From Gemmatimonadota bacterium (GTDB taxonomy: Bacteria; Latescibacterota; UBA2968; UBA8231): a stretch of 20,717 nucleotides of DNA. This document shows, one piece after another, positions 3,588 through 20,703 of this stretch (positions are counted from its first letter, which is position 1; each line of letters begins with the position of its first letter). Made by a program: the position numbers and the translations under genes. The stretch is from contig PATE01000117.1 of the NCBI GenBank assembly GCA_002712305.1, positions 1-20,717 on the forward strand. The letters run 5' to 3'. Below the pieces are notes generated by a model. That model saw only the letters and a program-made list of their open reading frames with translations, did not search any database and had not been told where the DNA came from.

Positions 3588-4393
3588 GCGGGTCCTGTGC
3601 CCGTGATGGTGACGGTAGCTCCGACCCCGACGTCCAGTTCGCGCGCTGCATGGCCACCGCGAACCGAGACTTCCAGATGACCCCCACTGCCGATCAGCCC
3701 CATAGGCTGGCCTGGATCCGCATCCGTATAGGTCACCGACAGACCCGTGATCGTGGTCCGGCCAATGACGATCTGTGCTACGGCGCCCAGGGCCTGCACA
3801 TCTTGTGTCGTGACGCTGGTGATGAGATTGCCGAAGTGATCTACATGCAGGACGCTGCCCACCAATTCGTTTCCCTGTCGCTGACAAGTGATCTGGGCAA
3901 GACAGATGGCATCGTCCACGACGGGGCCCACGGCACTCACGTCGAGCCCGGTGGCTAGATGAGCCGCGGCGGGTGCGAAGATATCTCGTCCGTGGAAGGT
4001 AGGACTCACCACCTTGGCTTGCAGATCGGGGTTGGTCAGCTGATGGACTCGCGCAGCCCGCTGTCGCAGGACGTGACTGAACAGACCATTGTCGGGTCCC
4101 ACCCATCGGTGCCGGCCGTCATCGATGGCGATACCACGGCGTTCGCTGCCGACGCCGGGATCGACGACAGCAAGATGCACGGTGTCCGGTGGAAACCTGT
4201 CCGTGCCCTGGCGTAATGCATAACTGCCGCCAAGAATGTCCTGGGCTGGAATGTGGTGGGTCAGGTCGATGAGGCTGAGACTGGCGTCGATGGAGAGAAG
4301 GGCTCCCTTCATGGCGCCTACGTATGTGTCTCGTGTACCGAAATCAGAGGTGAGCGTAACGATGGCCACGGGCGCGTCAGCCCGTGGTGCCAT
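3584..4393 (-). CDS. SAM hydroxide adenosyltransferase (SAM hydrolase, DUF62 family)
   Basis: This 269-residue protein belongs to the DUF62 family, which hydrolyses S-adenosylmethionine to adenosine and L-methionine. The N terminus VTLTSDFGTRDTYVGAMKG is diagnostic. The catalytic Asp-Arg-His set known for the family is present: DPGVGSER (Asp78, Arg85) and FHGRDIFAP (His134). The C-terminal beta-barrel part contains VDHFGNLITS. I chose ATG 4393, which gives the usual family length; it lies 17 nt inside the end of the upstream lipoprotein gene. GTG 4369 is an alternative start. Neither has a clear ribosome site, which fits coupled translation. Its stop overlaps the start of the phosphohexomutase. 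The biological role of this family is not settled. Confidence 0.88.
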   Translation of the reverse strand: MAPRADAPVAIVTLTSDFGTRDTYVGAMKGALLSIDASLSLIDLTHHIPAQDILGGSYALRQGTDRFPPDTVHLAVVDPGVGSERRGIAIDDGRHRWVGPDNGLFSHVLRQRAARVHQLTNPDLQAKVVSPTFHGRDIFAPAAAHLATGLDVSAVGPVVDDAICLAQITCQRQGNELVGSVLHVDHFGNLITSVTTQDVQALGAVAQIVIGRTTITGLSVTYTDADPGQPMGLIGSGGHLEVSVRGGHAARELDVGVGATVTITGTGPA

Positions 4394-4508
4394 CGCCGGT
4401 GTCTGTACCGCCTGTGTCACCGGTATCAGTGCCATCCGTACCACCCGTGTCCTCACCACCGGTGTCGCCTCCGCCTGTATCCCCACCTGTCGGATCCCCA
4501 CCCGTGTC
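4377..4508. repeat. Degenerate GDT-coding low-complexity repeat
   Basis: About 130 bp of short, degenerate 9-12 nt units built on CCACCxGTGTC (plus-strand view) encode the Gly-Asp-Thr tail of the minus-strand lipoprotein. The proposed start codon of the SAM hydrolase (4393) lies inside this tract in another frame. Confidence 0.7.
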
Positions 4509-4925
4509 GAGTTCGTCAAGAGGGATGGCCAGCCTGAGATCGATGCTGATCCGTGTTGTGTCATCGGCGACGATGATGATATCCGTCTGGGTACCGGAGA
4601 GGATCAGTCGGCCATCGAGATCAAACCCCTCGATGGTGAGGGTAACCCCCGTGCTCGGCGACAGGGCCCCGATGGTCAGCAAGGCTGGCCCGAGTGGTGT
4701 GTCGTAGCTGAGCTCTTTGACGACCGTCGGTGCGTCGGGAATCTCCAACGTTGCCACGAGACTGTCCACGACGGTGGCCAGGATTTTCGGTAAGGGCACG
4801 GCGAGGGACAGAGTCGACGTCTCGCTCTGCTCTGCAGACGAGGAGGGATCGAGGGGATTGTCCCGTTCGAGTCCCGTGCATGCCCAACCGGCCACAAGGA
4901 TGCCCAACAGGGCACACCTGCGCAT
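4377..4925 (-). CDS. Putative lipoprotein with Gly-Asp-Thr repeat tail
   Basis: I do not recognise a named family. From ATG 4925 the 182-residue product has a basic start (MRR), a hydrophobic core and a cysteine at residue 16 (LVAGWAC, an imperfect lipobox). RDNPLDP follows soon after, a motif common just after the lipid cysteine in FCB-type lipoproteins. The middle part (about 35-140) alternates beta-like segments such as LSLAVPLPKIL and GVTLTIEGFDLDGRLIL, suggesting a beta-sandwich. The last ~43 residues are a low-complexity tail of GGDTGG/TGGTD units. ATG 4973 would add 16 residues before the signal peptide and is equally possible; a start at 5027 would lie upstream of the putative -10 box. 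It is the first gene of the unit with the SAM hydrolase and phosphohexomutase. Confidence 0.65.
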   Translation of the reverse strand: MRRCALLGILVAGWACTGLERDNPLDPSSSAEQSETSTLSLAVPLPKILATVVDSLVATLEIPDAPTVVKELSYDTPLGPALLTIGALSPSTGVTLTIEGFDLDGRLILSGTQTDIIIVADDTTRISIDLRLAIPLDELDTGGDPTGGDTGGGDTGGEDTGGTDGTDTGDTGGTDTGDGTTG

Positions 4926-4997
4926 CACGTGCACGGGGTTATGGTCTGGGAGATAGTCTGGGATCTTGTTCATAGTTGAGTTTTCGGGTTGCCGCCA

Positions 4998-5003
4998 AGT
5001 ATA
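4998..5003 (-). promoter_or_regulatory. Candidate -10 box for the lipoprotein unit
   Basis: On the minus strand TATACT (5003 to 4998) is a 5/6 match to the -10 consensus, 25 nt before ATG 4973. No convincing -35 lies 16-18 nt upstream. Its place in the divergent gap between the lipoprotein and the FN3/NHL gene supports it as the start of the minus-strand transcript. Confidence 0.35.
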
Positions 5004-5052
5004 CACAGGCAACAGACCCTCTACCATAGGATCGGCGCCGAGACCCCTCTGC

Positions 5053-9700: not shown

Positions 9701-10450
9701 CTAGGAGTCGTCGTTCTCTTGAGCCCTGAGCCAGATCTCGTATTCCTTCTGCCCCTCAGCGTTGAGGGGATAATACTTCTCGATGTCGCCCGTTTCTTCC
9801 AGCTTCTGCCGTTCGAAGGTTTCACGGCCTTCGCGTGTGCCGCAATACTCGATCACCTGGTCAGCAAGTTTGGGTGGCACGACGACGACGCCGTCATCGT
9901 CACCGACGATGATATCTCCGGGAAACACAAGAGCACCCCCACAGGCGACGGGCACGTTGTAATCCCACGGATACATTTCGAAGTGACCAGCGTTGTGAGG
10001 CGTACCGCCGCGCAGGAAGAGGGGCAGTCCGATCTCTCGCGCCAGGGGCAGGTCGCGCACGCAGCCATCAACGACGAGGCCTCGGGCGCCTTTGGCGTGG
10101 ATGGCGGTCATGAGCATTTCGCCGAGGCAACCTGTCTGCATGTTGCCTCTCGCGTCTACGACAAGTACATCGCCGTCCTGGACGGCGATCACTGCCGACC
10201 AGAGAGCAGATCGTTTTTCCTGACTCTCCTCGGCGTGGCCTTCGACGATGTCTTCCCGCTTGGGCATGAAGCTCAGCGTGACCGCTGTACCCACCGTCTT
10301 GCGTCCCATCGTGAAAGGCACGGGGCCACAGGCATAGGCTCGAAGGACGCCACAGACTTCTCGCAAGGCTGAGCTGATCGTCGCCGTACCGAATTCCTGG
10401 AAGGCTGTCAGGGTGTCAGGATCGGGTCGGTCGAACTGGGCCGGAGCCAT
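9701..10450 (-). CDS. RraA-family protein (HMG/CHA aldolase-like)
   Basis: This 249-residue protein belongs to the RraA / 4-hydroxy-4-methyl-2-oxoglutarate aldolase family, often misnamed dimethylmenaquinone methyltransferase. The core runs VQDGDVLVVDARGN, then GCLGEMLMTAIHAKGARGLVVDG, then CVRD. Arg132-Asp133 corresponds to the substrate- and metal-binding pair of the aldolases. The C terminus (GDIIVGDDDGVVVVP) is also typical. Family members cleave or decarboxylate 2-oxo acids such as HMG or oxaloacetate, and a few inhibit RNase E. Its place in a catabolic operon favours an enzyme. ATG 10450 is preceded by GGAGAG. It is the last gene of the minus-strand operon, 63 nt after the TIM-barrel gene. 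The natural substrate cannot be read from the sequence. Confidence 0.85.
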   Translation of the reverse strand: MAPAQFDRPDPDTLTAFQEFGTATISSALREVCGVLRAYACGPVPFTMGRKTVGTAVTLSFMPKREDIVEGHAEESQEKRSALWSAVIAVQDGDVLVVDARGNMQTGCLGEMLMTAIHAKGARGLVVDGCVRDLPLAREIGLPLFLRGGTPHNAGHFEMYPWDYNVPVACGGALVFPGDIIVGDDDGVVVVPPKLADQVIEYCGTREGRETFERQKLEETGDIEKYYPLNAEGQKEYEIWLRAQENDDS

Positions 10451-10513: not shown

Positions 10514-11353
10514 TCACAAAGTGGCCAGGGCTTCGTCGAGAATCTGCTTCAGGCGTGCCGTCTCTGTTTTGAAGTCCCAGCCCGCCTCGAGCAGGGGTTC
10601 CTGGGTCACGAATTCGACACAGACCACGCCCTCGTAGTCGTCGGCATCGAGCTTCCGCATCAGACGAGGAAAGTCGATCACTCCTTCGTCGGGTCGGGCC
10701 TGGAAAGACTCGGGAGAGGACTGCTTGGCGTGGAAGTGGCGCGCATGGGGATGGAGGGGCTCGATTTGTTCAGGCCCCAGACCCAACTGTACCTGATGCG
10801 CATAGTCGACGGTCAATCCGAGGCCTGGCACCGCGTCGATGAGGCGGATCGCGTCGGCGGGCTGTTCAGCGATCGAACCGATACAGGGCTCAACATTGCA
10901 CTGCAGCTCTCGCTGCTGCGCCACATCGACCATGAAGCGAAGCTCTTCTACGGAAAGATCGAAAGCTTCCTGCGCCGACTGCCCCTCTTCCTCGTGCACA
11001 TGACCGGGAATCATCATCACACTCTCAAATCCCGACTTCTGCGCAAAGTGGGTGATCCCCTCAAACATGCCGCGGGTCCATTCTCGAATCTGCGCAGCCG
11101 GATGATTGATGGGATGTCCAAAATGCATGATGAACAACTCGGACACGGCCAACTGATGGGCATCGAGCACGCGACGCAGGCGATCCGCCTGCCCGTCGGG
11201 GTCGTCCACCGCTTCCTGGGGCAGGATCTGATGATAGTTGGACCATCCAGCGCCGACGTCGACCAGATCGAAGCCGAGTTCGTCGACAACGATGGTAGCT
11301 TGCTCGATCGTCAGATCACCAAAGCTGAAGGTGGCACCGGCTATTCGAATCAA
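10514..11353 (-). CDS. Sugar phosphate isomerase/epimerase-type TIM-barrel protein
   Basis: This 279-residue protein is an AP-endonuclease-2/xylose-isomerase-like TIM barrel, a family that includes sugar epimerases, hydroxypyruvate isomerase and inosose dehydratase. It starts IRIAGATFSFGDL. Candidate metal or catalytic residues at strand ends are Glu155 (CNVEPC), Asp183 and His186 (LTVDYAHQ), His208 (HFHAKQ) and Glu247 (VVCVEF). The start is a TTG at 11353, 8 nt after the gmaS stop; no in-frame ATG fits the family N terminus. It is read together with gmaS upstream and the RraA-family gene downstream. No such step is needed in the known N-methylglutamate pathway, so it probably handles a linked sugar-like or 2-oxo-acid substrate. 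That is inference. Confidence 0.82.
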   Translation of the reverse strand: MIRIAGATFSFGDLTIEQATIVVDELGFDLVDVGAGWSNYHQILPQEAVDDPDGQADRLRRVLDAHQLAVSELFIMHFGHPINHPAAQIREWTRGMFEGITHFAQKSGFESVMMIPGHVHEEEGQSAQEAFDLSVEELRFMVDVAQQRELQCNVEPCIGSIAEQPADAIRLIDAVPGLGLTVDYAHQVQLGLGPEQIEPLHPHARHFHAKQSSPESFQARPDEGVIDFPRLMRKLDADDYEGVVCVEFVTQEPLLEAGWDFKTETARLKQILDEALATL

Positions 11354-11361
11354 GAGGGAAC

Positions 11362-12669
11362 CTAACAGTCGAGAGTGTGTGAACGTTCCCAGTCGGACAG
11401 GTCGGTGGCATAGTCATTCCACTCGGCCGTCTTGAGCTTCACATAGGCGTCCATCGTTTCGGAGCCAAAACCTTCGGAGAAGGTCTTGTTGCTCTTCAGT
11501 TCACGGATCGCATCGAGAAGATTCAAGGGAAGCTTCTTCGCACGTTTCGCCTTTTCGGGCTCGGCATACACGTTGATATCGAGACGTTTCCCCGGGTCTC
11601 GTTCCTTGTCGATTCCATCCAGACCAGCCACAGCGATCGCTGTGGGTAGCAGATAGGGGTTGGTCGACCCGTCGGCCAAGCGCAGTTCTATCCGCCCGGC
11701 ATCAGGAATGCGCACCATGTGGGTGCGATTGTTGCCGCCATAGGTGACGATGTTCGGAGACCACGTGGCACCCGAGTTGGTGACGGGCGCATTGATGCGC
11801 TTGTAGGAGTTCACCGTGGGGTTCGTGATGGCGCACATGGAGGTTGCGTGCTCCATGATTCCACCGAGGAAGTTGTATCCCAGCTTCGACACACCCAGTT
11901 CGCCGTCTGCATCGGCGAACAGATTCGTTTCGCCATCGGCCGACCAGAGACTGACGTGGGTGTGACACCCATTACCGGTTAGTTCGGCGAAGGGCTTGGG
12001 CATAAACGTCGCCCGAATGCCGTGGCTCTCGGCGATGGACTTCACCATGTATTTGAAGAACGCGTGACGGTCGGCAGTGACGAGGGCATCGGCGTAGTTC
12101 CAGTTCATTTCAAACTGGCCGTTGGCATCTTCGTGGTCGTTTTGATAAGGCCCCCAACCGAGGGACAACATGGCGTCGCAGATCTCGCTGATGACATCGT
12201 ATCTGCGCATCAGGGCAGCCACGTCGTAGCAGGGCTTGCTCTGTGTGTCAGACGGATCGGCAAGTCCCTCACCGTCAGCGGAGATCAGGAAATACTCGCA
12301 CTCAACACCGTGTTTGAGGCGGTATCCCTTCTCCGAGGCTCTCCTCAGCACCCGCTTGAGCGCGTTTCGCGGTGCATGATCGACTTCCTTGCCATCCATG
12401 TAGAGATCGGCGGCCAGCCAACCCACATTCGGCTTCCACGGCAGTTGAATGAGACTCGAGGGGTCGGGAATGGCGAACATGTCGCTGTCGGCAGGCGTCA
12501 TATCGAGCCACGCCGCAAATCCTGCGAATCCGGCACCTTCTTCGGCCATGTCGGCGATGGCGGAGGCGGGAACCAGCTTCGCTCGCATCACGCCGAACAA
12601 GTCGACGAAGGAGATGAGGAAGTATTCGATTCCCTTATCGCGTGCTTCCTTTGCCAGATCGATCGTCAT
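11362..12669 (-). CDS. gmaS: Gamma-glutamylmethylamide synthetase (GlnT/glutamine synthetase-like)
   Basis: This 435-residue member of the glutamine synthetase superfamily is best read as GmaS, which joins methylamine to glutamate using ATP to give gamma-glutamylmethylamide. Superfamily residues are in place: ECEYFL (Glu123, Glu125), NDHEDANGQFEMNW (178-190), GNGCHTHVSLW (about 232-242), NSYKRINAP, and NNRTHMVRIP followed by GRIELR. The EDANGQFE and GGNNRTH stretches are, as I recall, the conserved sites targeted by gmaS-specific PCR primers. Close homologues are often named GlnT. The choice of GmaS rests mainly on the neighbouring complete mgs and mgd gene sets. ATG 12669 has a clear GGAGG ribosome site 6 nt upstream. 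It follows mgsC after 20 nt and precedes the TIM-barrel gene by 8 nt. Confidence 0.85.
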   Translation of the reverse strand: MTIDLAKEARDKGIEYFLISFVDLFGVMRAKLVPASAIADMAEEGAGFAGFAAWLDMTPADSDMFAIPDPSSLIQLPWKPNVGWLAADLYMDGKEVDHAPRNALKRVLRRASEKGYRLKHGVECEYFLISADGEGLADPSDTQSKPCYDVAALMRRYDVISEICDAMLSLGWGPYQNDHEDANGQFEMNWNYADALVTADRHAFFKYMVKSIAESHGIRATFMPKPFAELTGNGCHTHVSLWSADGETNLFADADGELGVSKLGYNFLGGIMEHATSMCAITNPTVNSYKRINAPVTNSGATWSPNIVTYGGNNRTHMVRIPDAGRIELRLADGSTNPYLLPTAIAVAGLDGIDKERDPGKRLDINVYAEPEKAKRAKKLPLNLLDAIRELKSNKTFSEGFGSETMDAYVKLKTAEWNDYATDLSDWERSHTLDC

Positions 12670-12689
12670 CTACATCCTCCAGGGATGGT

Positions 12690-14063
12690 TCAGTCCAGGG
12701 TCGGTCCAGACCCGGGCCGGTCTCGGTTTTCGTTGCCCGGAATCCAGGTGGTACCTGCCAGCGGGACCCTCGCCATGGCCGCCGCTTCGACGGTCAGGGC
12801 GACGAGATCCTCCGGCTCGAGGCTCAAAACGTTGCTCTTTCCGTTTGCTCGCGCAAGCGTCTGCAGTTCCATCGTCAGCACGGCCAGATAGTTGGCCAGG
12901 CGTCGCCCGCCCCTGATCGGGTCGAGGCGCTGGGCCAACTCGGGCCGCTGCGTGGTGATTCCCGCCGGATCATTGCCCTCATGCCAATCGTCGTAGGCGC
13001 CGGCGGTGGTGTCCATCTTCTGATATTCCTCTTCGAGGGCAGGATCATTGTCGCCCAGGGCGACGAGGGCAGCGGTCCCAATCGACACGGCATCTGCTCC
13101 CAGGGCGAGAGCTTTCGCCACATCTGCCCCTGAACGGATCCCGCCAGAGATGACCAACTGCACCTTCCGGTGCATATCCAGCTCCTGGAGGGCACGCACC
13201 GCCTCTGGTATGGCGGCCAGCGTGGGGATTCCCACATGCTCGATGAAGACCTCCTGTGTCGCCGCCGTGCCGCCCTGCATGCCGTCGACGACGACCACAT
13301 CTGCACCTGCTTTGACACTCAGCGCCGTGTCATAGTAAGGGCGAGCGGCGCCGATTTTGACGTAGATCGGCTTCTCCCACGATGTGATCTCACGCAGTTC
13401 CTGAATCTTGATGGCCAGATCATCGGGGCCGGTCCAGTCCGGATGTCGGCAAGCGGACCGCTGGTCGATGCCCTCAGGCAGTGTGCGCATCTCGGCAACA
13501 CGTTCGGTGATCTTCTGTCCCAGAAGCATACCGCCGCCACCGGGCTTGGCGCCCTGGCCGACGACGACTTCGACAGCGTCTGCCCTGCGCAGGTCGTCTG
13601 GATTCATCCCGTACCGAGAAGGCAGCACCTGATAGACGAGTTTGTCTGAGTGGCCGCGCTCCTCCTCGGTCATGCCGCCATCGCCAGTGGTCGTGGAGGT
13701 GCCCATGGCCGAAGCACCACGACCCAATGCCTCCTTCGCCTGTGCCGACAGCGAGCCAAAGCTCATCCCTGCGATGGTGATGGGGATCTTCAGTTCGATC
13801 GGTTTGGTGGCGAATCGAGTGCCCAGTGTGACCGCTGTATCGCAGCGTTCGCGATATCCTTCGAGAGGGTAGCGTGACATGGAGGCGCCGAGAAAAACGA
13901 GATCATCAAAGTGGGGGACCCGGCGCTTGGTCCCTCCTCCGCGGATATCGTAGATCCCCGTCGCTGCGGCCCGGCGGATCTCCGAAAGGGTGTAGTCGTC
14001 GAAGGTGGCCGACTTGCGGGGTACCGTAGGTGGGATGTGATGTTCGTCCGCTTGATCTGCCAT
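12690..14063 (-). CDS. mgsC: N-methylglutamate synthase subunit C, FMN-binding glutamate-synthase domain
   Basis: This 457-residue protein is the FMN-binding, glutamate-synthase-like subunit (GlxD/MgsC). Motifs in order: IPITIAGMSFGSLSAQAKEALGRGA, TTTGDGGMTEEER, QGAKPGGGGMLLGQKI, SACRHPDWTGPDDLAIKI, YVKIGAARPYYDTALSVKAGADVVVVDGMQGG, and LVISGGIRSGADVAKALALGADAVSIGTAAL. In the complex it would condense 2-oxoglutarate with the methylamine released from gamma-glutamylmethylamide to form N-methylglutamate. Between IGTAALVALG and GITTQ (about residues 338-369), where glutamate synthases carry [3Fe-4S] cysteines, there is no cysteine; the stretch contains AYDDWHEGNDPA. The only cysteines are near residue 74 and in SACRHPD. 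The start ATG shares one base with the mgsB stop (TGATG). Confidence 0.88.
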   Translation of the reverse strand: MADQADEHHIPPTVPRKSATFDDYTLSEIRRAAATGIYDIRGGGTKRRVPHFDDLVFLGASMSRYPLEGYRERCDTAVTLGTRFATKPIELKIPITIAGMSFGSLSAQAKEALGRGASAMGTSTTTGDGGMTEEERGHSDKLVYQVLPSRYGMNPDDLRRADAVEVVVGQGAKPGGGGMLLGQKITERVAEMRTLPEGIDQRSACRHPDWTGPDDLAIKIQELREITSWEKPIYVKIGAARPYYDTALSVKAGADVVVVDGMQGGTAATQEVFIEHVGIPTLAAIPEAVRALQELDMHRKVQLVISGGIRSGADVAKALALGADAVSIGTAALVALGDNDPALEEEYQKMDTTAGAYDDWHEGNDPAGITTQRPELAQRLDPIRGGRRLANYLAVLTMELQTLARANGKSNVLSLEPEDLVALTVEAAAMARVPLAGTTWIPGNENRDRPGSGPTLD

Positions 14064-14734
14064 CAGTATTCATCCATGTGGTCGATGGAGAAGTGGTAGA
14101 GCCGCCGTGCAGATCCAAAACGGGTGAAGTCCTTCGGGTTCGCATCGAGATTCGCGCGCTTCAGAAGCTGATCGATCGTTGCCAGGTGATCGGTCTCCAT
14201 CGGCTTTTCGATGCAGTCCGCGCCCAGGCCAGCCACCGCTCCACGCACGTAGATTTCTGCTTCGTAGATCGAGTCTCCCAGATCTGTGCCCGCGTCGCCG
14301 AGCACGACCAGGTGCCCCGCCTGGGCCATGAAGGCAGACATGTGGCCCACATCGCCACCGACGACGATGTCCACCCCTTTCATCGAAATCCCGGCCCGCG
14401 CCGATGCCGATCCTTCGACAACGACGAGTCCACCGTGCCCACTGGCGGCAAGAGACTGGCTCACATCGCCACGAACGTGGACCTCGCCAGACATGATATT
14501 CTCTGCGCAGCCGGTGCCGGCATTCCCGGTGACTGTCACGCTGGCGTGTTTGTTCATGCCGGCGCAGTAGTAGCCGGCGTGGCCCTCCACGGTGACTGAA
14601 ATCTCCGCATTGAGTCCACACGCCAGGGCATGGGCGCCACCTGGGTTCAGCAGATGAAAGGTGTCCTGCGACACCTGATGCAGCGCGGCATTGACGTCGC
14701 GCACGCTGAGGGTGGTCAGATCCAACTGCGTCAT
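14063..14734 (-). CDS. mgsB: N-methylglutamate synthase subunit B (GltB C-terminal GXGXG domain)
   Basis: This 223-residue protein matches the stand-alone C-terminal domain of glutamate synthase large subunit (GlxC/MgsB). It is a right-handed beta-helix of Gly-rich turns, seen in repeats such as ISVTVEGHAGYYCAGMNKH, ASVTVTGNAGTGCAENIMSG, EVHVRGDVSQSLAASGHGG, DIVVGGDVGHMSAFMAQAGH and EIYVRGAVAGLGADC. In glutamate synthase this domain is structural and helps hold the ammonia channel between glutaminase and FMN sites. The best start is ATG 14734, overlapping the mgsA stop as ATGA; a GTG at 14749 is a less likely alternative. The stop overlaps the mgsC start by one base. It is intact and of usual length. 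Confidence 0.88.
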   Translation of the reverse strand: MTQLDLTTLSVRDVNAALHQVSQDTFHLLNPGGAHALACGLNAEISVTVEGHAGYYCAGMNKHASVTVTGNAGTGCAENIMSGEVHVRGDVSQSLAASGHGGLVVVEGSASARAGISMKGVDIVVGGDVGHMSAFMAQAGHLVVLGDAGTDLGDSIYEAEIYVRGAVAGLGADCIEKPMETDHLATIDQLLKRANLDANPKDFTRFGSARRLYHFSIDHMDEY

Positions 14735-15627
14735 GCTGCGTGACTCCACGCATAGACCGTCGCCGGCTTTGGTTCCCAGATATCGGCGTGCGTGACGCCG
14801 GGCAACTGAGCAATGGCTCGGAACTCGGAAGACATGGCGACCCAGTCTTCGGTTTCGGCGATCACGGCAGGTTTGCAGGCGATGGGATCGCGGACGACGG
14901 CAAAACCATCTCGAGTACCGATGGCGAGGGTATAGAACCCATCGAGATCCCGCAGCGCATGTTCGATCGCCCCTTCGAGGGGATCGCCCTGACGCATGCG
15001 CCAGGCCAGATAACCGGCTGCCACTTCGGAGTCATTCTCGGTCTGAAAGGTCTCCCCATTGCGACGAAGTGTCTCACGCAGGCGATTGTGATTAGAGAGC
15101 GACCCGTTGTGCACGAGACACGTATCGGCACCCGTGGAGAAAGGATGAGATCCGGCAATCACCACGGCCGATTCGGTGGCCATGCGTGTATGGGCGATCG
15201 CATGTCGACCTGCACGCTCGGCAAGACCGAATCGACTCGTCATCGCATCGGGGTCACCGATACCCTTGAACAGCTCGATGGCGTGACCTACGGAAAGCAC
15301 AGTCACGTCAGGTGCAATCTCGATGATGCGATTGCGTGCCCGTGCACCATCTCCCTGGGTGTGGAGAATCGCGTGATCTTCTATCTCCACAACCTCGACG
15401 GCATCATCGATGGTCTGTGCAATGTCGGCACTGAGGGCAGCCCAGTCGGTGTCACCGGTCAGTGACAGGCAGCTGATCTTCGTGGCCGCCGCGGGGGCCT
15501 CGTAGATGGCAAAACCCGCCGAGTCAGGGCCACGATCCACCATCTCGTGCACCATGAGCGTGGTGAGGGTGCCCAGCTCTGGTTGCAGAGCTTCGTTCTT
15601 TAGGAACAGTCCAACAATGCCGCACAT
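14731..15627 (-). CDS. mgsA: N-methylglutamate synthase subunit A (class II glutamine amidotransferase)
   Basis: This 298-residue protein is an Ntn-hydrolase glutamine amidotransferase (GlxB/MgsA). It starts MCGIVGLF; Cys2 becomes the N-terminal nucleophile after Met removal. Other active-site segments are RGPDSAGFA, AHTRMATES, LVHNGSLSNHNRL and ENDSEVAAGYLAW. In this complex it would hydrolyse gamma-glutamylmethylamide, releasing methylamine into a channel to the FMN subunit, instead of releasing ammonia from glutamine. Family ends (FAVVRDPIACKPAVIAE) are present. It starts 15 nt after the mgdD stop with a weak GAGGG upstream, and ends in an ATGA overlap with mgsB. That the substrate is the methylamide and not glutamine is inferred from gmaS and mgd in the same operon. 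Confidence 0.87.
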   Translation of the reverse strand: MCGIVGLFLKNEALQPELGTLTTLMVHEMVDRGPDSAGFAIYEAPAAATKISCLSLTGDTDWAALSADIAQTIDDAVEVVEIEDHAILHTQGDGARARNRIIEIAPDVTVLSVGHAIELFKGIGDPDAMTSRFGLAERAGRHAIAHTRMATESAVVIAGSHPFSTGADTCLVHNGSLSNHNRLRETLRRNGETFQTENDSEVAAGYLAWRMRQGDPLEGAIEHALRDLDGFYTLAIGTRDGFAVVRDPIACKPAVIAETEDWVAMSSEFRAIAQLPGVTHADIWEPKPATVYAWSHAA

Positions 15628-15642
15628 CGAATCAGTCCACCC

Positions 15643-16374
15643 TCACGGTTTCGTTGTCTCCGTCAACATCCCCAGGCCCTGGGCGCCGATCGGTTCGACC
15701 CCCAATTCCTGTCCCGCCTCCATCAGCGTGTCCCACACGTAGGCACCCAGTGCGCGTCCTCCGACCAATCGATAGGCGGGTAGTTCACCCAGATCCGAAC
15801 GAATCACCAACTGGGCTGTCTTCGCGACGCTCGTCTGCATGGCTGTCCCCGACGGGAAGGCCCTCGAATCAACATCGAGGCCGCAGACCTTGCTCAGCAG
15901 TACGGGCGCCGCAGGACCCACGACGCGCAACTCAAATCGTCCATGCGTGACATCGGTCACAGTAGTATCCGAGTCGCCGACGGACTGAGTCAGCACCTCG
16001 AGGACCTGGGTCTGCCCATCCATTTCGCAACCCACGTGGCACAGATCAGGTCGCAGCAGCACGCCCTCAACCTGGAGTATGCGATCGGCGTCTTCTCTGT
16101 CGGCCACCCTCGCCTCGCAGACGACGCCGGTGCCTGTCACGGCGACGCCGATCGCATCACTTGCCTGCTGCTGAGCACCATCGCCCTGCAGGCGGAACTT
16201 GCCACGCGGCGTATCATCGCCGATGACGACGGCACGGCGAGCGATGCGCATCTCTGCGTCGTGGCCCGCGAAGGAATCCGGCACACGCCATCCGTGACCG
16301 GCTTCGACGATGGTCGCCCCCAATCTTGTCCAGCACGCTTCCAGCGGCGAGGTGAGGAAAGGAGTCGTCGTCAA
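15643..16374 (-). CDS. mgdD: N-methylglutamate dehydrogenase subunit D (sarcosine oxidase gamma-like)
   Basis: This 243-residue protein resembles the gamma subunit of heterotetrameric sarcosine oxidase (SoxG), which has a fold related to aminomethyltransferase GcvT and packs against the alpha subunit's folate-binding part. Visible traits are FELRVVGPAAPVLLSKVCGLDVDSRAFPSGTAMQTSVAKT and the C-terminal YVWDTLMEAGQELGVEPIG. The start is a TTG at 16374 that overlaps the mgdC stop (TTGA), so translation is probably coupled. Gamma subunits are the least conserved of the four, and this assignment relies partly on position. It ends 15 nt before mgsA, joining the dehydrogenase and synthase halves of the operon. 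Confidence 0.8.
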   Translation of the reverse strand: MTTTPFLTSPLEACWTRLGATIVEAGHGWRVPDSFAGHDAEMRIARRAVVIGDDTPRGKFRLQGDGAQQQASDAIGVAVTGTGVVCEARVADREDADRILQVEGVLLRPDLCHVGCEMDGQTQVLEVLTQSVGDSDTTVTDVTHGRFELRVVGPAAPVLLSKVCGLDVDSRAFPSGTAMQTSVAKTAQLVIRSDLGELPAYRLVGGRALGAYVWDTLMEAGQELGVEPIGAQGLGMLTETTKP

Positions 16375-19232
16375 CTTCGTAACCTTTCGCCCTGCGGGTC
16401 ATAGAAGGGGCCGTGATGCACGTGAGCGAGCTCAAGCTGGCCTTCAACGTGTATATGGAAAGGTGTATCCTGCTGTTCGGCCAATTCTGTCGGCAGCCAG
16501 CAAAGCCCGATCGTTTCCTGCAGGGTCGGTGAGTATCTGCACGAACTGATCCACCCGATGATCTCGGGTGCACCACGGTCTGCAGGCCTCACGACCTGCA
16601 AGCCCTCGACAAGGGCATCGGCCCTGCGCCTTGTGCGGAATCCGACGAGACGTTGCCGGGGTCCCTCCTCGGAGATCCGGGTGAGCGCCCGGCGTCCCAG
16701 AAAATCCTCATCCTTGTCCAGGCGGACTGCCCAGGGCGCATCGGCGGCGAGGGGATCGGTCAAGGCGTCGGTGTCCTGGCCGACGATGAAGTGTCCCTTC
16801 TCCAGCCGCAGGACTCGCTGCGCCTCGACGCCGAAGGGAAGAAGACCGTGGGGGATGCCTGCCTCGATCAAGGTTTCCCAGAGGTATCGGGCATATCCTG
16901 CGGGACAGTGGATCTCATACCCCAGTTCTCCCGTGAACCCAATGCGCAGCAGAAGACAGGGCACACCGGCAACCTTTGCTCGGCGGGCGCGCATGTAGGG
17001 GAACTTGCCATGGCTCAAGTCACGGGACGTCAGGGGCTGCAGGATCTGTCGCGACAGGGGGCCGGCCAAGTTGAAGGCCGCGTGCGTTTCCGTCATGTCC
17101 GTGATATGGACACCATCACCCCATCCGGACTGGCGCCACCATTCCATCCACTCCACCGCACCGCTTGCACCGGTAGACGTGGTCGACACATACCATTCGT
17201 GATCACTTATCCTAGCGCAGACACCGTCGTCAAGAATAATGCCTTCGTCATTGCACATGATGCCATAACGAACGCGACCACGGCGCAGGTCTTTCCATGG
17301 ATTCACATACAGACGTTCGAGCAACGTCGCCACGCCGGGGCCCGTGAGTTTGAGCTTGCCGAGTGGGCTGACATCGATGAGCCCCGCCGCTTCGCGCACG
17401 GCGCGCACTTCGTCTTCCGGTGTCCCATAGTGCTCGGGGCGCATCCATGGGCCGGCCACCATCAAACGCGCCTCGTGGCCGACGTGCCAGTCGTGGATCG
17501 CAGAGAGTTGGACAGGTTCCATCTTCTGGCCAGCGAGTGCACCCAACGACACGGGGGTCACGGGAGGGCGACCGGTGGTGCGCCCTGTTTCCTGCACGCT
17601 TTGGCCCGTGTTCTGAGCGCAGAGCCGGATGCTGTTGAGTCCGCACATCCGACCCTGGCAGGGTCCCATACCGACGGTGCTGTATCGCTTCAGCAATTCG
17701 ATCCGGTCATATCCCTCGGCTACGGCTGTTTCGATATCCGTGTCGGTCACGTCTTCGCAAAAACACACGAATCGTTTGTCACCGGCTGACCCCGGGGAGA
17801 CGACGATCTGTGACGAACGCGGGATCGGCGTTGTGCCTGTTGTTGAATCGTGGCTGGGACCTCCCGCCGCCGCGGCTGTTCCTGCTGCCGATCCCTGAAT
17901 CCACTCCTGCTCTGCCGTGCAAGGCCCAGCGACCCGACCCGCCAGAAAGATCCCCTCTGGCAGGTCTTCCAACGTCATCTCGGCCAGCGTCTCGTCGTAG
18001 TGACTACGGGCGCCTGCCATGGTCGCCAATTCAGCCGAAGGGATCCACGACGTACTCAGGGCGACGAAATCGCAACGGATGGTCTGTTTAGCGGCCGTGC
18101 CGTCCACGGGGACGAGGTCGACCTCATCCACACCTCGTGCGCCCCGCGCGGCGCTGATCGTGTAGCCCTGATGGATGACCACACCCGCCGTCGTCAGGGT
18201 CTCGTGTTGTTCTGGCGGACCGGGCTCAGGACGCTCGTCGGCGATGGCGACGATGTCGACACCCGCCTCGATCAGATCGACGGCCACCGCCCATCCCGCG
18301 TCGCTGGCGGTGACGATGACTCCTCTCTGTCCGGGAATCACGCCATGCAGGTGCAGGAGTCGTTGGGCGGCCGAAGCGAGCAGGACACCCGGCCGGTCGT
18401 TGCCGGCGAAGATCGGCGGCGCTTCGAACGCGCCACTGGCCACAACGACAGCACCGGCTCGGATCTTGTACAGACGGTTACCCCTCACCGCCGACAACCA
18501 GTGGTCCTGATACCAGCCGACAACGGACGTCCTGGTCAGGATCGTGGCTCCCGCCTGATCCAACGCCTTTCGACACTGGGCGATTCGTTCGGTCACCGTC
18601 TCGTCAGGGCGATCGAAGCGAAGGTGACCGCCCACGTCGGCATTTTCATCGATCAACAAGACTCGCGAACCGTGATCCGCCGCCGCCACAGCGGCGCTCA
18701 ACCCCGCCGGCCCACCGCCAACGACGACAACATCGGCGTGGAGATACTGTTTGTCGTAACTGCCTTCAGGGGTCTGCGGATCGATGACACCGAGGCCTGC
18801 CGCGTTGCGTAACAGATGTTCGAAGGCTGGCCAAAGGAATCGTGGTCGATGGAAGATCTTGTAGTAGAAGCCGACGGGGAGGAAGCGGGACACAGACTCT
18901 GTGAGCTGCATCAAATCATTGTCGAGAGAAGGCCAGGCGTTCTGAGATCGAATGTCCATCCCCTGCTCAAGCGGGCGCGTGCAGGAGCGCACACTCGGCT
19001 CGTCACCGATCTGCACCAGGCAATTGGGACAGTGTCCGGCGCCGCACAACAGACCTCGTGGTCGATGGTACTTGAAGGATCGACTCAGAATGCCTACGCC
19101 CGCGGCTGTGAGCGCCGACGCAATCGTGTCGCCTGCGTATCCGGTATACGAACGTCCATCGAACTGGAAGGAGAGCGGTTCGGCCCGGTCGACAACCTGC
19201 CCCGGACGTGCTTCGATGCGGCGACCTTTCAC
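16371..19232 (-). CDS. mgdC: N-methylglutamate dehydrogenase subunit C (sarcosine oxidase alpha-like)
   Basis: This 953-residue protein has the SoxA layout. An N-terminal ferredoxin-like domain has Cys63, Cys68, Cys71 and Cys84 (C-x4-C-x2-C-x12-C, in GLLCGAGHCPNCL), an intact [2Fe-2S] pattern. A Rossmann dinucleotide site follows (VVVVGGGPAGLSAAVAAADHG) with a large FAD/NAD region. Near residues 488-530 a second cysteine set occurs: CFCEDVT and GPCQGRMC. The C-terminal ~380 residues are GcvT-like, expected to bind tetrahydrofolate and capture the methyl carbon as methylene-THF. As far as I recall, classical sarcosine oxidase alpha lacks the first cysteine set, so this favours a dehydrogenase passing electrons on rather than an oxidase. 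The start is GTG 19232, overlapping the mgdB stop (GTGA); the open frame upstream is only mgdB in another frame. Confidence 0.88.
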   Translation of the reverse strand: MKGRRIEARPGQVVDRAEPLSFQFDGRSYTGYAGDTIASALTAAGVGILSRSFKYHRPRGLLCGAGHCPNCLVQIGDEPSVRSCTRPLEQGMDIRSQNAWPSLDNDLMQLTESVSRFLPVGFYYKIFHRPRFLWPAFEHLLRNAAGLGVIDPQTPEGSYDKQYLHADVVVVGGGPAGLSAAVAAADHGSRVLLIDENADVGGHLRFDRPDETVTERIAQCRKALDQAGATILTRTSVVGWYQDHWLSAVRGNRLYKIRAGAVVVASGAFEAPPIFAGNDRPGVLLASAAQRLLHLHGVIPGQRGVIVTASDAGWAVAVDLIEAGVDIVAIADERPEPGPPEQHETLTTAGVVIHQGYTISAARGARGVDEVDLVPVDGTAAKQTIRCDFVALSTSWIPSAELATMAGARSHYDETLAEMTLEDLPEGIFLAGRVAGPCTAEQEWIQGSAAGTAAAAGGPSHDSTTGTTPIPRSSQIVVSPGSAGDKRFVCFCEDVTDTDIETAVAEGYDRIELLKRYSTVGMGPCQGRMCGLNSIRLCAQNTGQSVQETGRTTGRPPVTPVSLGALAGQKMEPVQLSAIHDWHVGHEARLMVAGPWMRPEHYGTPEDEVRAVREAAGLIDVSPLGKLKLTGPGVATLLERLYVNPWKDLRRGRVRYGIMCNDEGIILDDGVCARISDHEWYVSTTSTGASGAVEWMEWWRQSGWGDGVHITDMTETHAAFNLAGPLSRQILQPLTSRDLSHGKFPYMRARRAKVAGVPCLLLRIGFTGELGYEIHCPAGYARYLWETLIEAGIPHGLLPFGVEAQRVLRLEKGHFIVGQDTDALTDPLAADAPWAVRLDKDEDFLGRRALTRISEEGPRQRLVGFRTRRRADALVEGLQVVRPADRGAPEIIGWISSCRYSPTLQETIGLCWLPTELAEQQDTPFHIHVEGQLELAHVHHGPFYDPQGERLRS

Positions 19233-19519
19233 GTCGTCTCCTGTCGGGCGTCGTCGTCCATGTCGACAGTCCACTGCCAGCTTCTGGTCACCTGATTGGT
19301 GCGTCGATCCCGCTCGACGAGGAACCACATTCCGCACCCGGATCGATGGTACCACCACTCAGTCTGCACACCCATCGAGTTCTGCCGCAGATAGAGATAT
19401 CGAGTCCATTCGTTGTCCGTGGCCGACGACGACGGTGCCGGCCGAGGGTTGTATTCCCCGCCATAGCGGAACTCGGCGGCATTGCGAGGGCCACAGCTGG
19501 GGCATTCGAGACGCAGCAT
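19229..19519 (-). CDS. mgdB: N-methylglutamate dehydrogenase subunit B (sarcosine oxidase delta-like)
   Basis: This 96-residue protein matches the small zinc-binding delta subunit of sarcosine oxidase (SoxD). The zinc ligands known in that subunit are present at nearly the same positions: Cys6 and Cys9 (LECPSCGPR), His58 and Cys62 (WYHRSGCGMWF). The tract FRYGGEYNPRP and the YLYLRQNSMG...EWWYH block are family hallmarks. It is a structural subunit, not catalytic. The start ATG 19519 shares its last base with the mgdA stop (TGATG). Starting upstream would only translate mgdA in the wrong frame. The stop is within the mgdC start (GTGA). Confidence 0.92.
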   Translation of the reverse strand: MLRLECPSCGPRNAAEFRYGGEYNPRPAPSSSATDNEWTRYLYLRQNSMGVQTEWWYHRSGCGMWFLVERDRRTNQVTRSWQWTVDMDDDARQETT

Positions 19520-20703
19520 CAGTGGCCCACCGACGCGGCGCCTTTTTCGCCAACCTGGTCGAATTCGGCAAAACGGGACAACCGAAAGGGTCGTAGCAGA
19601 TCCGGTGTGCGACGCGTGGCGATGAGCTCCGCCATCGTCTTTCCACAGATGGGCGAGGCCTTGAATCCGTAGGTACCCCATCCGGCGTCGATGAGAAAGT
19701 TCTCCACCGGAGTGATTCCCATGAGAGGAGAGAAGTCTGGTGGCATCTCACAGAGTCCGGCCCACTGACGCAGAATTCGCGCCTTGGACAGGAAGGGGAA
19801 CAGCTCCAGGACATGCCCGGAGAGTCCCTCCAGGAAATCGAGAGATCCAGCCATCGAGTACGAGGTGAATGGGTCGACGCTGGCACCCATCACCAGTTCG
19901 CCACGATCGGATTGACTGACATACACATGCAGACTACCGGAGACCACCACCACGTCGAGGAAGGGCTTCAGCGGTTCCGTCACACAGGCCTGCAAGGGGA
20001 AGGTGTCGAGGGGCAACTCCAAGCCGGCCATAGAGGCCACATTCGACGCCCAACCGGCTGTGGCAGACAGGACGAGTCCGGCCGACACGTTGCCACGCAA
20101 TGTCTGCACACCGGTGACTGCACCATTGCTGAGGTTGAGCCCCGTCACCTCCGTGTACTGGTGAATGTCTACACCCGCCTGGTCCGCTCCGCGGGCATAC
20201 CCCCAAACGACCGCATCGTGACGAATGATGCCACCCGGTGGGTGATAGAGGGCAGCCAGAATCGGAAAGCGGGGATGATCGCTCACGTCGAGCTGAGGGC
20301 AGATTCGAGACAGTTCATCCGGGTACACGAGGCGTGAATCAACCCCTTCAAGCCGGTTGACTTCGGCACGGCGTCGCATGGTTCGGACCGAGCCATCGTT
20401 GTGTGCCAGCGTGAGGTGTCCCCGCTGGCTGAACATGACGTTGAAGTCGAGGTCTTTCGCCAACCCCTCGTAGAGCTTGACGCTGGCATCGTAGAAACGG
20501 ACACCCTCCGGTGTGAGATAGTTCGACCGGATGATGGCTGTATTGCGCCCGGAGCCACCGGCCCCGATGTAACTCTTGTCGATGACGGCCACGTCCGTGA
20601 TGCCGTGATCCTTCGCCAGATAGTAGGCGCAGGCCAGCCCATGGGCGCCGCCACCGATGATGACGACGTCATAGTGGTCCTTCAGCGGCCGGTCGTGCCA
20701 CAT
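19519..20703 (-). CDS. mgdA: N-methylglutamate dehydrogenase subunit A (sarcosine oxidase beta-like), possibly 5'-partial
   Basis: At least 394 residues of a DAO-family flavoprotein like SoxB, which oxidises the N-methyl amine. The FAD site is YDVVIIGGGAHGLACAYYLA. It continues with GGSGRNTAIIRSNYLTPEGVRFYD, FSQRGHLTLAH, ALYHPPGGIIRHDAVVWGYARGAD, LQACVTEPLKPFLDVVVVSG, HVYVSQSDRGELVMGASVD and RQWAGLCEMPPDFSPLMG, and ends with a GWGTYGFKASPICGKTMAELIA tail. His162 (IIRHDA) likely aligns with the His carrying covalent FMN in SoxB. ATG 20703 is only 14 nt from the window edge; AAGG lies directly against it and no stop precedes it. SoxB proteins often have some 20-30 more N-terminal residues, so the true start may lie outside. 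The operon promoter is not in this window. Confidence 0.88.
   Translation of the reverse strand: MWHDRPLKDHYDVVIIGGGAHGLACAYYLAKDHGITDVAVIDKSYIGAGGSGRNTAIIRSNYLTPEGVRFYDASVKLYEGLAKDLDFNVMFSQRGHLTLAHNDGSVRTMRRRAEVNRLEGVDSRLVYPDELSRICPQLDVSDHPRFPILAALYHPPGGIIRHDAVVWGYARGADQAGVDIHQYTEVTGLNLSNGAVTGVQTLRGNVSAGLVLSATAGWASNVASMAGLELPLDTFPLQACVTEPLKPFLDVVVVSGSLHVYVSQSDRGELVMGASVDPFTSYSMAGSLDFLEGLSGHVLELFPFLSKARILRQWAGLCEMPPDFSPLMGITPVENFLIDAGWGTYGFKASPICGKTMAELIATRRTPDLLRPFRLSRFAEFDQVGEKGAASVGH

Follow-up and report, generated by a model that had tools for sequence, protein, structure and literature searches.

Methylamine is a widespread marine source of carbon and nitrogen, and gmaS serves as an environmental marker for its use. 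Alphaproteobacterial methylotrophs (Methylopila, Xanthobacter, Methylobacterium) process it through the N-methylglutamate (NMG) pathway with three enzymes, the gamma-glutamylmethylamide synthetase GmaS, the N-methylglutamate synthase MgsABC and the N-methylglutamate dehydrogenase MgdABCD. The marine SAR11 bacteria, in which methylamine oxidation has been measured in culture, follow the same three-enzyme logic with glnT, glxBCD and soxBDAG (PMC3160333). Plasmid mpAca1.1 of Acidithiobacillus caldus carries the cluster purU-mgdABCD-glnT-mgsABC-folD, whose GmaS is 71% identical to a glutamate-methylamine ligase (PDB 9qur). Outside the Proteobacteria, a full indirect glutamate (NMG) pathway was reported earlier for uncultured Binatota, in extracts of a report that describe neither a chimera nor an Fe-S MgdC (PMC8262859). 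Two groups of known enzymes bear on the dehydrogenase. Heterotetrameric sarcosine oxidase (PDB 1vrq, 2gag) has the subunit plan and domain order of Mgd. Opine dehydrogenase, D-hydroxyproline dehydrogenase, HCN synthase and archaeal L-proline dehydrogenase (PMC4575208; PDB 1y56) have FAD/FMN subunits along with [2Fe-2S] motifs of two kinds, and are dehydrogenases, not oxidases; opine dehydrogenase accepts dyes and cytochrome c, not oxygen (PMC4575208).

The locus described here represents a known pathway in a new version, a chimeric NMG operon whose MgdC carries Fe-S motifs. It lies in a window of 20,717 nucleotides, the whole stretch of DNA that was analysed, with the following features:

mgdA, 19519..20703, minus strand: SoxB-like beta subunit of N-methylglutamate dehydrogenase, 394 aa; TIGR01373 5e-148, DAO 2e-69
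mgdB, 19229..19519, minus strand: SoxD-like delta subunit of 96 aa, for which a Cys-rich zinc-type fold is expected; PF04267 1e-28
mgdC, 16371..19232, minus strand: SoxA-like alpha subunit, 953 aa, GTG start; TIGR01372 5e-250; PF13510, PF17806, PF04324, PF01571
MgdC predicted [2Fe-2S] motif 1 (Cys63, 68, 71, 84), 18981..19046, minus strand: from alignment; weak match to the complex I [2Fe-2S] subunit
MgdC predicted [2Fe-2S] motif 2, BFD-type (Cys490, 492, 525, 530), 17643..17765, minus strand: from alignment; best solved match 1y56_A / PH1363
mgdD, 15643..16374, minus strand: SoxG/GcvT-like gamma subunit, TTG start, 243 aa; PF01571 6e-18, PF04268 6e-5
mgd/mgs junction, native half against alphaproteobacterial-type half, 15628..15642, minus strand: switch of identity profile and discordant trees
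mgsA, 14731..15627, minus strand: 298-aa subunit of N-methylglutamate synthase, of class II glutamine-amidotransferase type; PF13522, PF13537
mgsB, 14063..14734, minus strand: GXGXG subunit, like GltB domain 3; PF01493
mgsC, 12690..14063, minus strand: FMN/Fe-S glutamate-synthase-like subunit (Glu_synthase), 457 aa; PF01645 1e-91
gmaS, 11362..12669, minus strand: gamma-glutamylmethylamide synthetase, 435 aa; type III glutamate-ammonia ligase TIGR03105
xylose-isomerase-like TIM barrel gene, 10514..11353, minus strand: PF01261; same place in congener L005
RraA-like aldolase-family gene, 9701..10450, minus strand: PF03737; same place in congener L005

An earlier note on this DNA had read a complete, tightly spaced NMG operon here. 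All eight genes are indeed present on the minus strand with the expected Pfam and NCBIfam names, comprising the four SoxBDAG-like subunits of an N-methylglutamate dehydrogenase and the GATase II, GXGXG and FMN glutamate-synthase domains of an N-methylglutamate synthase, the latter also recognised by tree and identities. Neighbours overlap by 1 nt (mgdA/B, mgsB/C) or 4 nt (mgdB/C, mgdC/D and, if mgsB starts at the ATG at 14734, mgsA/B), or are separated by 15 nt (mgdD/mgsA) and 20 nt (mgsC/gmaS). mgdC probably starts at the GTG at 19232; its longest open reading frame includes 42 further upstream codons that are not likely to belong to the gene. Only 14 nt lie between the start of mgdA and the end of the window, which leaves the promoter outside.

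The host, a marine bacterium not yet cultured, belongs to class UBA2968 of the phylum Latescibacterota (GTDB). The suspicion that the contig came from a phylum other than the Proteobacteria is thus borne out; the contig falls outside the Alphaproteobacteria, and a record of the same genus agrees. The source assembly is a metagenome-assembled genome (MAG) of 4,765,829 bases in 146 contigs, 91% complete, in which a search for an SSU rRNA gene for 16S placement found none. The congener MAG L005 holds, on a 311-kb contig, the whole operon together with the same left-hand housekeeping genes, and its LysRS, IF-1, TPR, mutase and ZapA are 57-97% identical to those of the window. Since the identical eight-gene order and identical flanks recur in this congener, the single cluster is more than a chance arrangement.

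MgdA has the RHD motif (GGIIRHDAVVWG), aligned in 38 of 41 rows, which in SoxB proteins is the covalent FMN site. MgdC is composed of Fer2 (Fer2_4), FAD/NAD, BFD-type (Fer2_BFD), SO_alpha_A3 and GcvT-type folate (GCV_T) domains by Pfam, and the eight cysteines of its two predicted sites are complete in all 16 Latescibacterota type I/II-clade sequences spanning both sites, that of the window included. They occur in no proteobacterial MgdC/SoxA row with adequate coverage of both sites, nor in A. caldus or SAR11 MgdC, and in solved sarcosine oxidase they are absent, having been replaced. MgdC therefore differs from the alpha subunit of a cluster-free sarcosine oxidase, which has no Fer2 or BFD cysteines, and agrees with the dye-linked [2Fe-2S] dehydrogenases in having cysteine motifs for two sites, Fer2_4 and Fer2_BFD in Pfam terms. 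The opine dehydrogenase group lacks a folate-binding GcvT domain, however, carries Fer2 on a separate gamma subunit and acts on other substrates.

Since MgdC has the cysteines of two [2Fe-2S] sites, MgdABCD most likely acts as a dehydrogenase that delivers electrons to the respiratory chain, not as an O2-using oxidase. We tentatively go one step further, and consider it possible that the Latescibacterota MgdABCD is a distinct, respiratory-chain-linked Fe-S N-methylglutamate dehydrogenase in the ancestral state of both the cluster-free sarcosine oxidases and the proteobacterial NMG dehydrogenases, the lineage having exchanged its synthetase half; methylamine use would then need no O2 as direct oxidant and could proceed in low-oxygen waters. 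Alternatively, the eight cysteines might hold no clusters and the enzyme might be an oxidase like tetrameric sarcosine oxidase, which provides the nearest solved full-length relatives of MgdC (best match 395 bits), all cluster-free. We regard this as unlikely, given that all eight cysteines are retained across a clade of 45-77% overall identity and that their spacing matches both kinds of [2Fe-2S] motif of opine dehydrogenase (PMC4575208). Through the cysteine pattern, the evolutionary origin of cluster-free sarcosine oxidases from Fe-S dehydrogenases becomes open to experiment with expressed proteins.

The reading of the operon as a complete NMG pathway for monomethylamine, assembled from two sources and with MgdABCD most likely linked to the respiratory chain, is one that we hold with good confidence. 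GmaS would join methylamine to glutamate at the expense of ATP, giving gamma-glutamylmethylamide; MgsABC would then move the methylamine onto 2-oxoglutarate, yielding N-methylglutamate and glutamate; and MgdABCD would oxidise the N-methylglutamate to regenerate glutamate, its GcvT-like domain loading the methyl carbon onto tetrahydrofolate to form 5,10-methylene-THF, for a net yield of a C1 unit and assimilated nitrogen. GmaS scores 671 bits against NCBIfam TIGR03105 (cut-off 470) and shares 69% identity with RhGmaS of Rhodovulum 12E13, whose structure is known (PDB 7cql). All ten residues compared are conserved (K30, A48, Y147, Q175, D177, E179, E186, N188, W300, R312), their catalytic and monomethylamine (MMA)-pocket roles being those assigned in RhGmaS (PMC7948447). 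Ala48 replaces an Asp and Trp300 a Glu of glutamine synthetase, so that the ammonium site of the latter is absent, whereas a GlnA-like protein of the same genome has H48, F175 and K177 at GmaS positions. The concern that GmaS might branch with ordinary GlnT proved unfounded, since it groups with alphaproteobacterial GmaS and is separate from the glutamine synthetases of the host genome.

A different substrate appears improbable. The SoxBDAG family does include enzymes for several substrates, and MgdABCD could be a sarcosine or dimethylglycine dehydrogenase, with GmaS and Mgs serving ethylamine or another short amine; moreover, plasmid-borne MgdC homologues adjoin folD/purU, with neither mgs nor gmaS in the stretches examined. 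Against this, in A. caldus as in the Latescibacterota cluster types, mgd adjoins mgs and a GmaS-type synthetase, and the MMA-pocket residues of GmaS are intact. Judged from its sequence, the methylamine gene set is complete and probably working. Among possible C1 outlets, neither FolD, PurU nor formate-THF ligase scored above cut-off in the source assembly; FolD is present in the congener and in most relatives, so assembly incompleteness is the likely cause. The same 91% complete genome yielded neither a TMAO demethylase scoring over cut-off nor any protein of PF11927 (HODM/DUF3445, dimethylamine-monooxygenase-like), and thus no evidence that methylamine is made from TMAO or dimethylamine.

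By its trees and identity profiles, the operon is a chimera that switches between mgdD and mgsA, with mgdABCD of the lineage's own clade and mgsABC-gmaS of an alphaproteobacterial clade. Median identities to alphaproteobacterial NMG proteins and to Latescibacterota type II, respectively, are 45 and 80% for MgdA, 41 and 60% for MgdB and 35 and 56% for MgdC, as against 53 and 34% for MgsA, 56 and 37% for MgsB, 81 and 55% for MgsC and 68 and 47% for GmaS. MgdA and MgdC nest within the Latescibacterota type II clade, beside a MAG of genus g5 (G015) of the same family, while MgsC and GmaS branch with Alphaproteobacteria, the MgsC clade of the window being sister to, rather than within, the alphaproteobacterial set. 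AU tests, with rival groups named after the trees had been seen, rejected a type I+II clade for MgsC (p 9e-8) and for GmaS (2e-5), a type I+III clade for GmaS (7e-5) and, weakly, a joint MgsC clade with type III (p 0.045). The trees, built by short searches with SH-aLRT support, are unrooted for transfer direction. The operon halves are alike in GC and GC3, so composition lends no support to recent transfer. The earlier suggestion of horizontal transfer holds for mgsABC-gmaS, which look acquired, and fails for mgdABCD; the alphaproteobacterial-type cassette occupies the place of the relatives' own GmaS-like gene, a clear case of module swapping within one pathway.

Transfer of all eight genes together from an alphaproteobacterium would account for the alphaproteobacterial likeness of mgsABC and gmaS, and Alphaproteobacteria do have mgs-gmaS-mgd neighbourhoods, but this is very improbable given the position of MgdA and MgdC inside the type II clade and the rejection of a joint type I and alphaproteobacterial MgdC clade (p 3e-4). 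The alphaproteobacterial loci also have another gene order; the window operon begins with mgd. The catalytic residues of its GmaS are identical to theirs. The A. caldus plasmid, like the window, places mgd before gmaS and mgs in one block, with MgdA at 59% and GmaS at about 42% identity, yet has folD and purU; SAR11 proteins belong to other subfamilies, and SAR11 has TMAO genes too. That an alphaproteobacterial contig was binned or assembled into a Latescibacterota genome is scarcely credible, although the source is a MAG and mgs/gmaS are alphaproteobacterial-like, because the contig also carries housekeeping genes that keep synteny with the 311-kb contig of the congener, three further MAGs, of genus g5, have the same operon version, and both operon halves share the GC of the remaining contig. 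A mis-assembled mgdD-mgsA join is likewise unlikely, since independent MAGs have the same join.

MgsC was found in 27 of the 47 UBA2968-class genomes examined and in none of 17 other Latescibacterota, and the class has at least three types of NMG cluster. No earlier report of the pathway in Latescibacterota was found in the literature. With several versions of it in the class, Latescibacterota may be an overlooked consumer of methylamine, and a GmaS survey would count this operon of an uncultured member as alphaproteobacterial. The several versions across the class, like the two Fe-S motifs and the chimera, are features that the earlier note did not mention. Two further co-directional genes follow the operon, the first 8 nt downstream of gmaS and the second 63 nt after it. 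The former, xylose-isomerase-like and not recognised beside the genus-g5 NMG clusters, is possibly a tail of the operon transcript in this genus only, and the RraA-like gene may likewise be a tail of the transcript that carries gmaS.

The eight N-methylglutamate (NMG) pathway genes, mgdABCD, mgsABC and gmaS, are all found where the earlier note had placed them, tightly packed on the minus strand, and profile searches match every one of the eight assignments. For mgdC, the longest frame in a mechanical ORF list begins 42 codons too far upstream; the start that fits the family is a GTG at 19232, overlapping mgdB by 4 nt. The contig ends 14 nt upstream of mgdA, which probably opens the operon, because at L005, the locus of a congeneric MAG, the preceding gene (competence-type) lies on the opposite strand about 1 kb away. 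Following the established NMG pathway, GmaS would convert glutamate, methylamine and ATP to gamma-glutamylmethylamide, MgsABC would carry out the transfer from this compound to 2-oxoglutarate, yielding N-methylglutamate, and MgdABCD would oxidise the latter to glutamate, with the methyl carbon passing to THF.

The window, which has a GC content of 60.8%, represents contig 117 in an assembly that is 90.9% complete and comprises 146 contigs with a total of 4,765,829 bases. Evidence that this genome is 'Gemmatimonadetes bacterium SAT162' is very strong but indirect; a study of Gulf of Mexico MAGs gives SAT162 a GC of 60.21%, an equatorial Pacific origin (Tara Oceans sample) and the GTDB place Latescibacterota;UBA2968;UBA2968;UBA2968 (PMC9874027). 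Eight of the nine Latescibacterota in that study were originally classed as Gemmatimonadetes, the NCBI label likewise carried by the congener, SI074_bin69; a search of its text found no mention of methylamine. In the congener the complete operon, in the same gene order, is followed as in the window by an isomerase, an RraA-like protein, class I LysRS, IF-1, TPR, NHL, SAM-hydroxide adenosyltransferase, mutase, FliL-like and ZapA genes. The same operon version occurs in G005, G009 and G012, MAGs that belong to a different genus within the family, in surroundings that differ from the window's where flanks are readable. We rejected an artefact, since L005 carries both operon and flanking genes on a 311-kb contig and the three further MAGs share the operon version. 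Two minor features were seen in this genome: a small NPLDP-type lipoprotein (window 4377-5027) with a C-terminal Gly/Asp/Thr repeat tail and no Pfam match, 66% identical to the congener's over 148 residues; and a glutamine synthetase match (G000:C128:13971-15068), adjoining a second such match, whose in-frame TAA may reflect assembly error or decay.

With MgsC as marker, 27 of the 64 Latescibacterota genomes compared were positive, all within the window's class (27/47), with none among the 17 outside it. At least three cluster types exist, given here with our genus (g) and family (f) groups.

NMG cluster types in Latescibacterota
Type I (the window's), g1 and g5: mgdABCD-mgsABC-gmaS
Type II, g4, g10, one g5 member and f4 genera: divergent mgsABC (MgsC 55%) beside mgdABCD; several clusters also with a GmaS-like gene of about 50%
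Type III, g7: mgsABC-gmaS-mgdABC; MgsC 78%, GmaS 42%

The two halves of the type I operon have different affinities. Median identities of the window's proteins to alphaproteobacterial versus type II loci are 45 versus 80% for MgdA, 41 versus 60% for MgdB and 35 versus 56% for MgdC, whereas they are 53 versus 34% for MgsA, 56 versus 37% for MgsB, 81 versus 55% for MgsC and 68 versus 47% for GmaS, a sharp switch at the mgdD/mgsA border. In trees, type I MgdA and MgdC nest within the Latescibacterota type II clade, beside the g5 genome G015, while MgsC and GmaS group with Alphaproteobacteria. AU tests, whose p-values are indicative because the groups were picked after the trees were seen, rejected a union of types I and II both for MgsC (p 9e-8) and for GmaS (p 2e-5), one of type I with alphaproteobacterial MgdC (p 3e-4) and, marginally, one of type I with type III MgsC (p 0.045); type I GmaS as sister to cyanobacterial GmaS was not rejected (p 0.54). 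G015, with a GmaS-like gene of ~50% directly after mgdABCD, seems to show the arrangement that preceded the replacement. The event was probably not recent, because GC3 shows no shift between the operon halves. Another module swap is possible on a short Hyphomicrobiales contig (L013:1-3107), where alphaproteobacterial mgsC-gmaS is joined to an mgdA sharing 64% identity with that of the window and clustering with proteobacterial plasmid genes.

Judged by sequence, the gmaS product is GmaS. It is 69% identical to the solved enzyme of Rhodovulum 12E13 (RhGmaS, PDB 7cql), whose methylamine-site and catalytic residues are named in a mechanism paper (PMC7948447), and it matches RhGmaS at each of the ten positions compared. 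Among these are Ala48 and Trp300, where glutamine synthetase has its ammonium-binding Asp and its flap Glu. The GlnA-like protein of the same genome (contig C101) differs at three of the ten and has the same Trp at 300 in this alignment, and type II GmaS-like proteins have Ala for Q175. Cyanobacterial GmaS from Pseudanabaena, Leptolyngbyaceae and Hyella (L033, L046, L054) is 65-67% identical to the window's, and the flanking DNA retrieved with the gene contains neither mgs nor mgd. A second, ~33% identical GmaS-like protein with Val at position 48 and its own mgs-like set (L130:8410-9831, L142 near 12081, L055, L065, L068) is common to family f4, SAR324 and SAR11, forms one starred clade and looks to have moved among marine lineages by transfer.

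Window MgdC carries Cys63/68/71/84 in its Fer2 domain and Cys490/492/525/530 in a BFD-like A3 domain. In the alignment all eight are kept in 16 of 16 type I/II-clade Latescibacterota sequences covering both regions (the window and 15 relatives, 45-77% overall identity), and three incomplete sequences retain the four that fall within them. Not one of the proteobacterial, cyanobacterial-plasmid or Latescibacterota type III sequences that span these positions carries them; in a partial SAR324 protein (L209), the second site's four cysteines are present. The solved sarcosine oxidase alpha subunit lacks these cysteines. Opine dehydrogenases, which have the same two motif kinds, act as dehydrogenases and make no use of oxygen (PMC4575208). 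We infer that the Latescibacterota enzyme is an iron-sulfur dehydrogenase.

The NMG pathway itself is already known, and in full form it had been reported outside Proteobacteria for a few Binatota genomes (PMC8262859). Full-text searches of open-access papers gave no report of it in Latescibacterota, an absence that is not proof; new, as far as we found, are the chimeric operon, the predicted iron-sulfur version of MgdC and the occurrence of the pathway throughout class UBA2968.

As for the C1 outlet, FolD, PurU and formate-THF ligase gave no match over cut-off in the window's assembly, a gap probably due to incompleteness, because the congener has FolD and 51 of the 60 genomes searched have a FolD match above cut-off. 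Non-methylotrophic proteobacteria with the NMG pathway take nitrogen from methylamine (PMC5023228). PF11927 (HODM/DUF3445, dimethylamine-monooxygenase-like) was not found in the window's genome and is present in several relatives (G005:C157, G009:C564, G004, G008, G011, G017, G025), which suggests that these, not the window's organism, may oxidise dimethylamine. Another Latescibacterota family has a methylated-amine island (L130/L131, G044:C234:1-26542) with two mgs sets, mgdABCD, an ammonium-transporter-like gene, formate-THF ligase, a GmaS-like gene and a TMAO demethylase (1263 bits against a curated cut-off of 1100), the last also found in four related genomes.
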